Shown here one piece after another: positions 38,027 to 42,699 of a stretch of DNA of 43,111 nt (the stretch's first letter is position 1; the number at the start of each line of letters is the position of its first letter). The stretch spans positions 1 to 43,111 of the forward strand of contig JAIPCU010000008.1 in NCBI GenBank assembly GCA_021738045.1, written 5' to 3'. This DNA comes from Candidatus Methylopumilus sp. (GTDB lineage: Bacteria; Pseudomonadota; Gammaproteobacteria; Burkholderiales; Burkholderiaceae_B). Position numbers and translations under genes: made by a program. The notes beneath the pieces were generated by a model, which was not told the DNA's origin, did not search any database, and was given only the letters and a program-made list of their open reading frames with translations.

Positions 38027-38917
38027 TCAACGCGCTTTTTGCAGTGCCAGACTGGCGCTCAGGATTGTCAAAATGATGACTGCCGCGCCCAATAAGGTGC
38101 GCGGCGACGGCTCTTGACTGAAAAACCACCAGGCAAAGGCAATCGCGTAGATGGGCTCAAGGGCCACCACAAGCCCGGCACTGCGGGCCGGCAAATGCCG
38201 CAAACTCGACACAAACAAAAGATGCGCCAAGCCCGTACAGAGCACACCCAATGCTGCCACCCAGAGCCAATTGGTCAGGCTAATTTGCCTAAGCGAGCCC
38301 AGTACCCAGGGCGACATCACCAAAAAAACCACGGCGTTTTGCAGGCCCGCCACAGCGAACGCGTTGACCTCAGTCAAATAGCGCCGATTCAGTACCGCCA
38401 GCACACCAAAACTTGCCCCTGACAGCAAGCCCCACAGTAAGCCTTCAGTGCCTAAATTCGACAGCTCAAACGAGGGGGTAATCAGTAGCAGCCCAAGGCT
38501 GACCAGCCACAGACGCACCCATTCGGCGCGAGTCACCTTCTCGCGCAGCAGGCCCCACTCAATGAGCGTAATAAAGGCAGGGAAACTAGCAAAACCCAGC
38601 GTCGCGATCGCGATTCCACCCACTTTGACCGAAATAAAGAAGGTGACCCAGTGCAATGCTAGGACCGCGCCTGAGCAAAGTAACGCCACCCAGCGCCCGT
38701 GACCCAAGACGCTTAAGCGTGGCTGGGCGAGCAAGAGCCGCCCAAACAGGGTCAACGCCAGAACAGCAAACGCCGCCCTTCCCCAAGTAATAAATGCCGG
38801 ATCGGCTGTGATCAACTCGCCCAACACACCCGTGGCACCGAACAAGACCGCCACCAGATGAACCGCAAATAAAGACTGGGTGCGGGTCAATCTGGCCAGC
38901 CTAAGGGGGCAGCCCAT
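38027..38917 (-). CDS. DMT superfamily (EamA) transporter
   Basis: About 10 hydrophobic helices in two EamA repeats; ALEPIYAIAFAWWFFSQEPSPRTLLGAAVIILTI. Confidence 0.88.
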   Translation of the reverse strand: MGCPLRLARLTRTQSLFAVHLVAVLFGATGVLGELITADPAFITWGRAAFAVLALTLFGRLLLAQPRLSVLGHGRWVALLCSGAVLALHWVTFFISVKVGGIAIATLGFASFPAFITLIEWGLLREKVTRAEWVRLWLVSLGLLLITPSFELSNLGTEGLLWGLLSGASFGVLAVLNRRYLTEVNAFAVAGLQNAVVFLVMSPWVLGSLRQISLTNWLWVAALGVLCTGLAHLLFVSSLRHLPARSAGLVVALEPIYAIAFAWWFFSQEPSPRTLLGAAVIILTILSASLALQKAR

Positions 38918-39624
38918 CCTGTATAGGTTTTGCGCAGCGGCGTTGCATAATCCCCGCGCTTGCTTGTGCCTAAGCCCAAAGCGGCCAAGGCCTCGGCAAA
39001 TTTGACGGCAACTGAGACGCCATCAATCACGGGCACGCCCAGGCGCTCAGTGAGGGTGTGGCAAAGTGCAGACATGCCAGCACAGCCCAGCACAATGGCA
39101 CCACTGCGATCGCGCGCCAAGGCTTCGCGGGCGACATCTTCAATCTGGCGTGTCAGGGGTTCACCACCATCTTCGAGATCTAACACAGCGATGTCGGTGC
39201 CGTGCACCCCACGACATTGGTGCTCAAACCCATACCGTTGCACCAAACGCTCAGCAATGATGCAAGTGCGTGTCATGGTTGTAACAACTGAAAATCCAGT
39301 TGCAAGCATGCTGGCGGCATGAAATGCTGCCTCGGCGATGCCCAATACTGGTGCATGCGTCGCTTCGCGGGCCGCTTCTAAACCCGGGTCGCCAAAGCAG
39401 GCAATCACAATCCCGTCTGGGCGTTGCGCTTGAGCGAGCCGCACTTGTTCGGCCACACCCGCAGCCGCAAAGGCTTCGTCGTAATGCCCCTCAATGGAAA
39501 GTGGGCCAAAACTAGGATGCACGGCAATGATTTGCGTGCCAGCGGCGGCAACCGCCTGAGCGCTTTGGGCGATCCCGGCTGTCATGGCATCGGAGGTATT
39601 AGGGTTAATAAGGAGTAGTTTCAT
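38887..39624 (-). CDS. Aspartate/glutamate/hydantoin racemase-family protein (HyuE-like)
   Basis: MKLLLINPNTSDAMTAGI; DGIVIACFGDPGLEAAREATHAPVLGIAEAA; GAIVLGCAGMSAL; two catalytic-type Cys. Confidence 0.87.
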   Translation of the reverse strand: MKLLLINPNTSDAMTAGIAQSAQAVAAAGTQIIAVHPSFGPLSIEGHYDEAFAAAGVAEQVRLAQAQRPDGIVIACFGDPGLEAAREATHAPVLGIAEAAFHAASMLATGFSVVTTMTRTCIIAERLVQRYGFEHQCRGVHGTDIAVLDLEDGGEPLTRQIEDVAREALARDRSGAIVLGCAGMSALCHTLTERLGVPVIDGVSVAVKFAEALAALGLGTSKRGDYATPLRKTYTGWAAPLGWPD

Positions 39625-39668
39625 TTTGAAAGGTCGGTTAACTTTGCTAACTTATGCAAGCATTATGT

Positions 39669-39685
39669 TGCACCAAATTGGACAA
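39669..39685 (+). promoter_or_regulatory. NtrC-like enhancer site 1 (partial dyad)
   Basis: TGCACC-AAATT-GGACAA versus consensus TGCACC-N5-GGTGCA: left half perfect, right half 3/6. Confidence 0.45.
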
Positions 39686-39709
39686 AAATGCCCCAGAATT
39701 AAGTCTTGA

Positions 39710-39726
39710 CGCACCAACATATTGCA
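39710..39726 (+). promoter_or_regulatory. NtrC-like enhancer site 2 (partial dyad)
   Basis: CGCACC-AACAT-ATTGCA versus TGCACC-N5-GGTGCA: 5/6 and 4/6, correct 17-bp length. Confidence 0.5.
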
Positions 39727-39841
39727 TGAAGTAAAAATCACCCTAAATGAGCGTTGGATTTGACCCAATACTTGCCCACAGAATTTCTTGGCGGTGATCA
39801 GTTTGGAAATTCATTTCAACATCTAGCAGCCGTAGCATACA

Positions 39842-39857
39842 TGGCACGCTAATTGCT
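39842..39857 (+). promoter_or_regulatory. Sigma-54 (RpoN) -24/-12 promoter upstream of the oligopeptide-type ABC operon
   Basis: TGGCACG-CTAA-TTGCT matches TGGCACG-N4-TTGCW exactly, with the invariant GG-N10-GC spacing. Confidence 0.82.
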
Positions 39858-39982
39858 TAAGATGATACAACGAGGTTGCAATGTTTTTCTAGCAGTAGGC
39901 GATCTCGGTCGACATAAACGAGTAAAAAATTTTATTCAGTCACTTTGGCACGAATTCAGTCATTCAATCCTTCGGAGAATCC

Positions 39983-41632
39983 ATGAAAAAGTCTTTTTTG
40001 CGCATGTCGCTAATAGCTAGTGTATTGGCCGCAGCCTTTGCTCAACCCGTGTTGGCACAGAATAAAACTCTGACAATCGCCATGACGGCTGCAGATATCC
40101 CCAGAACCTTGGGGCAGCCTGATCAAGGCTTTGAAGGCAACCGGTTTACCGGCATCCCAATGTATGACTCACTCACACAGTGGGATTTATCGAAAGCGGA
40201 CGCAGCCAGCGTCGTGATTCCTGGTGTTGCGCTATCATGGGCAGTTGATGCCACGGACAAAACCAAATGGATTTTCAAATTGCGCCCTGGCGTGAAGTTT
40301 CATGATGGTTCGGCGTTCAATGCTGACGCGGTCGTCTGGAACGTGCAAAAGGTTTTGGACAAGAGCGCAGCCCATTTTGACGCCAGCCAAGTCGGCGCCA
40401 CCGCCTCGCGTATGCCCACCTTGCGCAGTGCCAAAAAAATTGATGATATGACCGTGGAACTCACCACGAGCGAGCCCGATTCGTTTTTGCCCATCAACTT
40501 GACCAACTTGTTTATGGCTTCGCCAGCCAAGTGGGACCAAAAGCTTAAGGCTGTTCCGGCCACAGTGACCGACCCAGCCGAGCGTGCCAAGCAAGCCTGG
40601 ACCGCCTTTGCCGCCGACGCCTCGGGCTCTGGCCCCTTTAAAATGGCTCGTTTTGTACCGCGTGAGCGCTTAGAGCTTGTTGCCAACAAAGACTACTGGG
40701 ATGCCAAGCGCGTACCGAAAATTGACCGCGTTGTGATGATTCCAATGCCTGAGGCCAATGCACGCACAGCCGCATTGCTTTCAGGCCAAGTTGACTGGAT
40801 TGAAGCCCCCTCCCCCGATGCGATGCCGCAAATTAAGCAACGCGGCTTTACGATCTATAGCAATCCACAACCCCACGTCTGGCCCTGGCAGCTGTCTTTT
40901 GCTGACGGCTCACCTTGGCTAGACAAGCGCGTGCGTCAGGCCGCTAACTTGTGCGTTGACCGCGCTGGCTTGAAGACTTTGCTCGGTGAGATGATGGGCA
41001 TCCCCAAGGGCACCTTCCCACCCGGGCACCCTTGGTTTGGCACCCCAACGTTTGACATCAAGTACGACCCTGCAGCCGCCAAAAAACTGATGGCAGACGC
41101 AGGCTACTCGGCTGGCAAGCCAATGAAGACGAAAGTGCAAATCTCGGCTTCTGGCTCAGGCCAGATGCAACCCTTACCCATGAACGAGTTTGTACAGCAG
41201 TCGCTCAAACAGTGTTTCTTTGACATCCAGTTTGATGTGATCGAATGGAACACCATGTTTAACAGCTGGCGCTTGGGTGCTAAAGATCCAGCAGCCAACG
41301 GCGCAACCGCGACCAATGTCAGCTTCTCGGCAATGGATCCGTTTTTCGCCATGGTTCGTTTCTCAAGCACCAAGGCGTTTCCGCCCGTTTCAAACAATTG
41401 GGGTTATTTTGGCAGCCCCGAGATTGAGCAGTTAGTGACAAATGCTCGCACAAACTTTGACGAAAAAGGGCGTGACGATGCCTTAGCAAAGCTACACGCT
41501 AAGATTGTTGACGAAGCCGCTTTCGTCTGGATCGCACATGACGTGGGCCCACGTGCAATGAGCACGAAAGTCAAAAACGTTGTTCAGCCGAAAAGTTGGT
41601 TTATTGATATCGCAACGATGACAAAAGACTAA
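39983..41632 (+). CDS. Peptide/nickel/opine-type (family 5) ABC transporter substrate-binding protein
   Basis: Signal peptide MKKSFLRMSLIASVLAAAFAQPVLAQ; KWIFKLRPGVKFHDGSAFNADAVVWNVQKVLD; DppA/OppA-type fold motifs. Confidence 0.93.
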   Translation: MKKSFLRMSLIASVLAAAFAQPVLAQNKTLTIAMTAADIPRTLGQPDQGFEGNRFTGIPMYDSLTQWDLSKADAASVVIPGVALSWAVDATDKTKWIFKLRPGVKFHDGSAFNADAVVWNVQKVLDKSAAHFDASQVGATASRMPTLRSAKKIDDMTVELTTSEPDSFLPINLTNLFMASPAKWDQKLKAVPATVTDPAERAKQAWTAFAADASGSGPFKMARFVPRERLELVANKDYWDAKRVPKIDRVVMIPMPEANARTAALLSGQVDWIEAPSPDAMPQIKQRGFTIYSNPQPHVWPWQLSFADGSPWLDKRVRQAANLCVDRAGLKTLLGEMMGIPKGTFPPGHPWFGTPTFDIKYDPAAAKKLMADAGYSAGKPMKTKVQISASGSGQMQPLPMNEFVQQSLKQCFFDIQFDVIEWNTMFNSWRLGAKDPAANGATATNVSFSAMDPFFAMVRFSSTKAFPPVSNNWGYFGSPEIEQLVTNARTNFDEKGRDDALAKLHAKIVDEAAFVWIAHDVGPRAMSTKVKNVVQPKSWFIDIATMTKD

Positions 41633-41745: not shown

Positions 41746-42699
41746 ATGCTGAGCTTTATGTTTCAACGGGTTTTATACACCTTGCCCATTATGTTTGGCG
41801 TGGCGCTGGTGTGTTTCGCGCTCGTGCACCTTGCGCCCGGCGATCCGCTTGTGTCGATCATGCCGCCCGATGCCTCGCAAGAGTTGCAACAACAGTTGAT
41901 GGAGATCTATGGCTTTAACAAGTCATATCCAGAACAATTTTTTCGGTGGGGTTGGCGCGCGCTGCAAGGTGACTTAGGGACCTCAATTGCCAGCGGCCGC
42001 CCTGTGACTAGCGAGGTCATGCGTGCAGTGCACAACACCTTTAGGCTAGCAGCCGTGGCAACGATGATCGGCTTTATTTTTGGCTGTTTATTCGGCTTCG
42101 TAGCCGGCTATTTTCAAAACTCATGGGTAGATAAAGCGGCATCCCTGACCTCGGTCTTAGGTGTCAGCGTGCCGCATTACTGGCTTGGCATGGTGCTTGT
42201 GATCATTTTCAGTTCACTGCTGATGTGGTTACCGCCCAACGGCGCTGGGCCCGGCGGCTCATCAGACTGGCAATGGAACTGGGAGCACATTAAGCACTTG
42301 GTCTTGCCTGCGATCACGATGAGCGTGATCCCGATGGGTATTATCTCGCGTACGGTGCGTGCGCTTGTCGCAGAAATTTTGTCGCAAGAATTTATTGTCG
42401 GACTGAAAGCAAAGGGGTTGACCAATATCGGGATTTTCATGCATGTGGTTAAAAATGCAGCTCCAACCGCTCTTGCCGTGATGGGTTTGCAGTTGGGCTA
42501 CCTGCTAGGCGGTTCAATCTTGATCGAGACCGTGTTCTCGTGGCCTGGTACTGGCTTTTTACTAAACTCTGCGATTTTTCAACGAGATCTGCCGCTACTA
42601 CAAGGAACCATCCTTGTACTCGCTACTTTCTTTGTCGTTCTCAACATGATTGTCGATATTATTCAGACCATGCTTGACCCACGTATCGCGCGAGGCTGA
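41746..42699 (+). CDS. ABC transporter permease, DppB/OppB family
   Basis: LYTLPIMFGVALVCFALVHLAPGDPL; GLKAKGLTNIGIFMHVVKNAAPTALAVMGLQLGYLLGGSILIETVFSWPGTGFLL (EAA-type loop). Confidence 0.95.
   Translation: MLSFMFQRVLYTLPIMFGVALVCFALVHLAPGDPLVSIMPPDASQELQQQLMEIYGFNKSYPEQFFRWGWRALQGDLGTSIASGRPVTSEVMRAVHNTFRLAAVATMIGFIFGCLFGFVAGYFQNSWVDKAASLTSVLGVSVPHYWLGMVLVIIFSSLLMWLPPNGAGPGGSSDWQWNWEHIKHLVLPAITMSVIPMGIISRTVRALVAEILSQEFIVGLKAKGLTNIGIFMHVVKNAAPTALAVMGLQLGYLLGGSILIETVFSWPGTGFLLNSAIFQRDLPLLQGTILVLATFFVVLNMIVDIIQTMLDPRIARG

Follow-up and report, generated by a model that had tools for sequence, protein, structure and literature searches.

In the window (the whole stretch of 43,111 nucleotides analysed here), nitrogen limitation would lead phosphorylated NtrC and sigma-54 to turn on an ABC importer of the Dpp type that would take up allantoin or a related ureide, a reading drawn from sequence comparison to which we assign a probability of roughly 0.7. 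According to this reading, nitrogen limitation would cause phosphorylated NtrC to bind a tandem array of TGCACCA-type sites at 39669-39726 (about -200 to -142) and to oligomerise there, and the activator would then loop across about 115 bp to the RpoN-RNA polymerase held closed at 39842-39857. Activation would drive transcription of a five-gene Dpp-type importer (a substrate-binding protein, SBP, two permeases, and two ATPases), which would take up allantoin or a closely related ureide or hydantoin. A divergently encoded racemase of the type found in Klebsiella pneumoniae (KpAllR) would equilibrate the stereoisomers of the imported ureide, and the stereospecific allantoinase PuuE and enzymes of the allantoate-amidohydrolase type, encoded elsewhere in the genus, would release the nitrogen. 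The features involved are collected in Table 1.

Table 1. Features of the racemase-importer region, with coordinates in the window and centres of sites relative to the predicted transcription start.
Feature	Coordinates	Strand	Basis
EamA/DMT-type transporter	38027..38917	-	PF00892; overlaps the end of the racemase gene
Asp/Glu/hydantoin racemase family protein, allantoin-racemase (KpAllR)-like	38887..39624	-	PF01177; best PDB match 3qvj, E 1.1e-75
Putative NtrC-type site 1, TGCACCA-AAT-TGGACAA, TGCACCAAATTGGACAA	39669..39685	+	11/14 to consensus; centre about -191; identity 0.70 in left half, 0.76 in right half
Putative middle (third) site, TGCCCCA-GAA-TTAAGTC	39689..39705	+	centre about -171; left half strong, right half degenerate; TGCCCCA identity 0.80
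Putative NtrC-type site 2, CGCACCA-ACA-TATTGCA, CGCACCAACATATTGCA	39710..39726	+	11/14; centre about -150; left-half identity 0.77
Sigma-54 (RpoN) -24/-12 promoter, TGGCACG-CTAA-TTGCT	39842..39857	+	12/12 to consensus; at least 10/12 in 28/29 orthologues
Predicted transcription start	39868	+	12 nt past the -12 GC; predicted from the position of the -12 element
SBP, Dpp/Nik/Opp-type (family 5) ABC importer	39983..41632	+	PF00496 (SBP_bac_5), E 8.6e-71
ABC permease, DppB/NikB type	41746..42699	+	PF00528, E 2.8e-37
ABC permease, DppC type, cut by contig end	42704..43111	+	PF12911

The Importer and the Divergent Racemase

The genes beyond the contig end can be read from a near-identical genome (G004, locus L070), where two ABC_tran/oligo_HPY ATPases lie downstream of the DppC-type permease and are followed by a ClpB-like protein; thus, the importer operon comprises five genes. 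With the ATPases taken from G004, the family 5 importer set is complete: the SBP, two BPD_transp_1 permeases, and two ATPases. On the other side of the intergenic region, the racemase and the EamA/DMT-type transporter are likely carried on one transcript, and their order is the same in most racemase-bearing loci of the genus.

The racemase is 56% identical over 236 residues to 3qvj, the K. pneumoniae allantoin racemase, which has the catalytic residues Cys79 and Cys184, the substrate residues Asn12, Thr118, and Thr119, and the subfamily residue Met17 (PMC12661438). All six of these residues are conserved in the window, as Cys76, Cys181, Asn9, Met14, Thr115, and Thr116, the mapping allowing an offset of two between the chain index and the published KpAllR numbering, and the protein carries every residue by which the subfamily was recognised (two catalytic Cys, Asn/Asp12, Met17, Thr/Ser118, and Thr119 in KpAllR numbering). 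The family assignment of the earlier note, Asp/Glu/hydantoin racemase, stands, and a generic Asp/Glu racemase gives way to a KpAllR-like enzyme on account of this identity and these residues. The likeness to KpAllR lies in the sequence identity and in the retained catalytic Cys and Asn/Met/Thr/Thr residues, whereas in the window the racemase gene and a Dpp-type ABC importer diverge from a shared intergenic region.

Gene Linkage in Relatives and the Substrate Class

Comparison with relatives moderately favours a substrate of the ureide/allantoin class. Outside the genus, a PuuE allantoinase over the model cut-off adjoins the orthologous transporter in G039, G147, and G094, and M20 hydrolases over the NF006769 'allantoate amidohydrolase' cut-off adjoin it in G039, G061, G062, Cupriavidus, and Klebsiella. 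Moreover, racemase-family genes adjoin the transporter in G039 (where the linked racemase has 5lfd, the allantoin racemase of P. fluorescens, as its nearest match), G062, Rhizobium, and Dinoroseobacter, and the urease gene UreD does so in G062. It had been proposed that the transporter imports a nitrogenous compound on which the racemase acts; this proposal is supported, and the compound is narrowed by the KpAllR-likeness and by the PuuE and allantoate-amidohydrolase-type neighbours.

The importer could instead carry another nitrogenous ligand, such as hydantoins, N-carbamoyl amino acids, D-amino-acid peptides, or other dipeptides, under the same sigma-54/NtrC control and next to a broad hydantoin-type racemase, which we regard as rather unlikely. 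Family-5 SBPs bind diverse ligands, and the SBP of the window matches both DppA and haem-binding proteins by sequence. The linked M20 proteins, which are mutually 56-61% identical, score well above the hydantoinase/carbamoylase TIGR01879 cut-off and far below the AllC equivalog cut-off, which leaves room for a related ureide or hydantoin as the ligand. Racemases of allantoin and of hydantoin belong to a single subfamily (PMC12661438). In G013, moreover, the transporter is linked to an amidase, and both this genome and G026 have the transporter without an adjoining racemase and without PuuE over the cut-off. Against such a ligand stand the linkage of PuuE, whose model is specific for allantoinase, to the transporter in three genomes and the conservation of all six KpAllR residues checked.

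The ureide reading can also be set beside the gene content of the genus, where PuuE is over the cut-off in 22/31 genomes and an NF006769 M20 hydrolase in 27/31; this co-occurrence with the transporter is suggestive. Neither of the two lies beside the transporter in the genus loci examined, and no strong sigma-54 box was found at the genus PuuE loci. The present assembly (G000), which is 82% complete, has no PuuE over the cut-off and no high-scoring M20 orthologue, and G029 (99% complete) has the transporter and the racemase and no PuuE over the cut-off. An M20 gene on contig C149 of the present assembly was rejected as a partner of the transporter: its product shares only about 42-43% identity with the linked M20 proteins, and the gene is surrounded by others of the amidohydrolase type.

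Two further gene clusters were observed in these surveys. The stretch C149:3156-8389 of the present assembly (L150) holds an amidohydrolase-like gene, an M20 hydrolase just over the NF006769 cut-off, and a nitrilase-like gene, and may possibly serve the use of N-carbamoyl or D-amino acids. At the PuuE loci of the genus (L138-L145), PuuE and a conserved gene whose product starts MAGSLLVSGNPQHYKAIGEGGQPVY are often divergently oriented.

NtrC and the Upstream Array

Sigma-54 promoters require an enhancer-binding activator of the PF00158 type. NtrC is encoded in the assembly (TIGR01818, 672 bits against a cut-off of 558.6) and is the only protein in it with a PF00158 match above 190 bits; the other matches reach 20-25 bits, too weak for another sigma-54 activator to be retained as a candidate. 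NtrC is likewise the sole strong PF00158 match in 22/31 sampled genomes of the genus, including G005, G013, and G014, which are at least 95% complete, and is thus the default activator. A PF00158 match on the 870-aa neighbour of the importer in G004 was discarded, since the protein is Clp/ClpB.

Sites were scored against the NtrC consensus TGCACCA-N3-TGGTGCA (14 fixed positions), and a literature search found no compilation of NtrC sites. NtrC-type dyads number 199 genome-wide against 97 control sites, and the best of them fall at the amtB-like and OMP/GlnK loci, so the motif model is valid for this organism. A 12/14 NtrC-like dyad nearly touching an exact sigma-54-like match inside the ntrC coding region (L002/L097, C85:6647-6675) is probably a chance occurrence.

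Within the window, sites 1 and 2 have three mismatches each, and five such sites are present against 3.5 expected; thus, neither dyad is significant when taken alone. When 21 intergenic regions between racemase and SBP are aligned, a footprint TTGCACCAnnnTGGACAAAAATGCCCCAAAAT...GCACCAnnATgnnGCA is apparent, and the positions of the array are conserved in 20/21 regions with 10-13/14 matches to the NtrC dyad. Among 14 representative sequences, the core of the block has a mean pairwise identity of 0.70-0.82. The earlier note had described two NtrC-like sites 41 bp apart, and both are where it placed them; their number has to be revised, since a third, equally conserved repeat lies between them. 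The TGCCCCA at 39689 stands midway, so the left half-sites at 39669, 39689, and 39710 follow one another in steps of 20 and 21 bp, about two helical turns, and the block is better read as three tandem, putative TGCACCA-type sites than as two dyads. The middle site reaches 11/14 as a 17-mer in L051, L052, L054, and L065 and persists in the first three of these loci, in which the left half-site of site 1 is degraded. Site 2 reaches 12-13/14 in L043, L045, L048, L057, L058, and L060, and all three sites score 10-12/14 as 17-bp dyads in L057, L058, L060, and L065.

The block could also be a promoter or operator of the divergent racemase that is used by another regulator, in which case NtrC would activate the sigma-54 promoter from weak or remote sites. 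This seems improbable. In its favour, the racemase start codon is only 45-102 bp from the block, which lies upstream of it, the best-conserved part of the block, TGGACAAAAATGCCCCA, deviates from the NtrC consensus, and L049 and L055, which have no divergent racemase, retain the sigma-54 box and have no clear array. On the other hand, the TGCACCA half-sites recur with a period of 20-21 bp, at 10-13/14 and in the same places in 20/21 genomes, the distance to the -24 element suits an enhancer, and a sigma-70 scan found no promoter above chance.

The combination of strong left and weak right half-sites with a conserved TGGACAAAAA segment goes beyond the NtrC consensus alone. The TGGACAAAAATGCCCCA core fits the NtrC consensus imperfectly, so the array may be overlapped by the site of another factor or by an element of the racemase promoter. 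The highly conserved TGGACAAAAATGCCCCAAAAT core within 39669-39726 is, in the same manner, only partly explained by that consensus. In L049 and L055 (genomes G013 and G026), the upstream context has been swapped for a gene of a 2OG-Fe(II) oxygenase or of another ABC ATPase, and NtrC is the sole strong activator in G013 despite the lack of a clear array there. L059, too, keeps the sigma-54 box and shows no clear array.

Activation of the sigma-54 promoter of the importer by NtrC, which the earlier note had proposed, appears very probable on indirect grounds: NtrC is the sole true enhancer-binding protein in this genome and in most of those sampled in the genus, the half-sites and their distance fit, and dyads occur at the amtB-like and OMP/GlnK loci. 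From the same sequence comparisons, we infer that NtrC occupies the array and that the importer is induced under nitrogen limitation. As for the racemase, the array is indeed located just upstream of its gene, as had been noted, and its control by NtrC is no more than a possibility, since no reverse-strand sigma-54 box is conserved: across 21 regions, only isolated, non-consensus matches occur on that strand, in 3/21, and a second sigma-54 promoter serving the racemase was accordingly rejected.

The Sigma-54 Promoter and Its Conservation

The promoter element TGGCACGCTAATTGCT at 39842-39857 has GG at 39843-44 and, after N10, GC at 39855-56, and it agrees with TGGCACG-N4-TTGCW at all 12 fixed positions. 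The letters and coordinates of this box and of both dyads are as the earlier note gave them. Transcription from the predicted start at about 39868 would yield a leader of about 115 nt before the SBP ATG at 39983, which is preceded by a GGAG motif. The sigma factor itself is encoded in the assembly (RpoN, PF04552, E 1.2e-58, contig C216).

Within the window, TGGCACGCTAATTGCT is the only sigma-54 match with at most one mismatch; since chance would give about 0.9 of them, the element taken from a single sequence is no more than suggestive. Pattern searches, rather than position weight matrices, gave 74 matches with at most one mismatch genome-wide, against 28 for a reversed control pattern, and, across the 2.96 Mb of the assembly, nine exact ones, five intragenic and four intergenic. 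The four intergenic boxes precede an OMP/GlnK-like locus, a nitrate-type ABC SBP, the SBP at 39983, and another family-5-like (SBP_bac_5) SBP, the genes at the three boxes outside the window having been assigned by inspection of their translations and not by a family search. In the last of these loci (L009/L154, C187:3973), the second family-5-like SBP is accompanied by permeases and divergent from a 353-aa gene, and the set is likely a nitrogen-scavenging importer. In the nitrate-type locus (L007/L151, C140:4949), the SBP is accompanied by a permease and an ATPase, and the contig ends with an AllC-like M20 hydrolase.

SBP orthologues are present in most sampled genomes of the genus and in other genera, and conservation of the box was counted over the 29 orthologous loci with enough upstream sequence. 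The GG-N10-GC element is found at 10/12 or better in 28/29 loci, 79 to 207 bp before the SBP start, with at least 11/12 in 23 loci and 12/12 in 13; L069 is the sole locus among the 29 in which no element of at least 10/12 was found upstream of the SBP. In dinucleotide shuffles of segments that took in the whole intergenic region, the chance per sequence was 0.011 for at least 10/12 and 0.0008 for at least 11/12, and this conservation therefore places the box beyond chance. Mean pairwise identity in the 14 representative sequences is 0.81 in the box, with the GG invariant, 0.21 between block and box, and 0.29 in the leader. Phylogenetic footprinting of the intergenic region, suggested earlier as a check, thus found both the sigma-54 box and the upstream block conserved.

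Beyond these, the more distant orthologues in G092, G094, and G141 have a 10/12 box each, two Klebsiella records and Cupriavidus sp. KK10 have 10/12 boxes, and Rhizobium johnstonii 3841 has one of 11/12. No sigma-54 box was found upstream of the Paracoccus and Dinoroseobacter orthologues or, as a negative control, of five SBP paralogues about 50% identical. The promoter before the SBP gene is, on this comparative evidence, almost certainly real, and the claim that sigma-54 controls the transporter is strongly supported by the footprint. That TGGCACGCTAATTGCT matches by chance and a sigma-70 promoter serves the SBP gene can be dismissed as extremely improbable: the number of near matches expected in the window and the five intragenic exact matches would allow it, whereas the box is kept in 28/29 orthologues with diverged flanks, which rules a chance match out, and the sigma-70 scan returned one site, on the other strand and at chance level.

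Relation to Known Systems and Biological Meaning

In E. coli, NtrC binds ddpXABCDF, which resembles the system proposed here in encoding a Dpp-type five-subunit ABC importer under NtrC for nitrogen scavenging (PMC4066584). The E. coli system imports D-Ala-D-Ala and has a dipeptidase as its partner, in contrast to the divergent allantoin-racemase-like protein found here, and the SBP at 39983 is likened to it by type and regulation, with no orthology implied. A second parallel is offered by the beta-proteobacterium Burkholderia cenocepacia H111, in which mutation of ntrC impairs the use of allantoin and lowers expression of the dipeptide-type SBP BCAM1770 and the dppB gene BCAM1771, so that NtrC-dependent Dpp-type SBP/permease genes and allantoin use occur together (PMC5491218). 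No racemase link is described in the passages of that paper drawn on here (PMC5491218), and BCAM1770 is likened to the SBP at 39983 by type, with no orthology implied. In two Klebsiella records (NZ_CP099745.1 and NZ_CP114358.1), the SBP is 60% identical, the order SBP-permease-permease-ATPase-ATPase is the same, and the 10/12 sigma-54 box lies 54 bp before the ATG; an M20 Zn-dependent hydrolase comes next, and there is no racemase and no clear NtrC dyad upstream.

The regulatory architecture is that of textbooks and, therefore, the locus is a well-supported new sigma-54/NtrC target and not a new mechanism. More tentatively, and at a little less than even odds, the importer may belong to a widespread, uncharacterised Dpp-family subfamily specific for allantoin or related ureides, in which the sigma-54 promoter would have been kept across alpha-, beta-, and gamma-proteobacteria while racemase, PuuE, M20, and urease partners were shuffled, and in which the enhancer of the genus would consist of three NtrC sites spaced 20-21 bp apart, with possible control of the divergent racemase as well.

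The newer part is the substrate class, which provides a testable assignment for an abundant, uncharacterised family-5 binding protein. Among the titles and abstracts matched by a search of open-access literature, no described ABC importer for allantoin was found. The conserved sigma-54 control, together with the linkage to an allantoin racemase, PuuE, and an enzyme of the allantoate-amidohydrolase type, suggests a ureide ABC importer, which, if the assignment is true, would be a route to scavenge purine-derived nitrogen.
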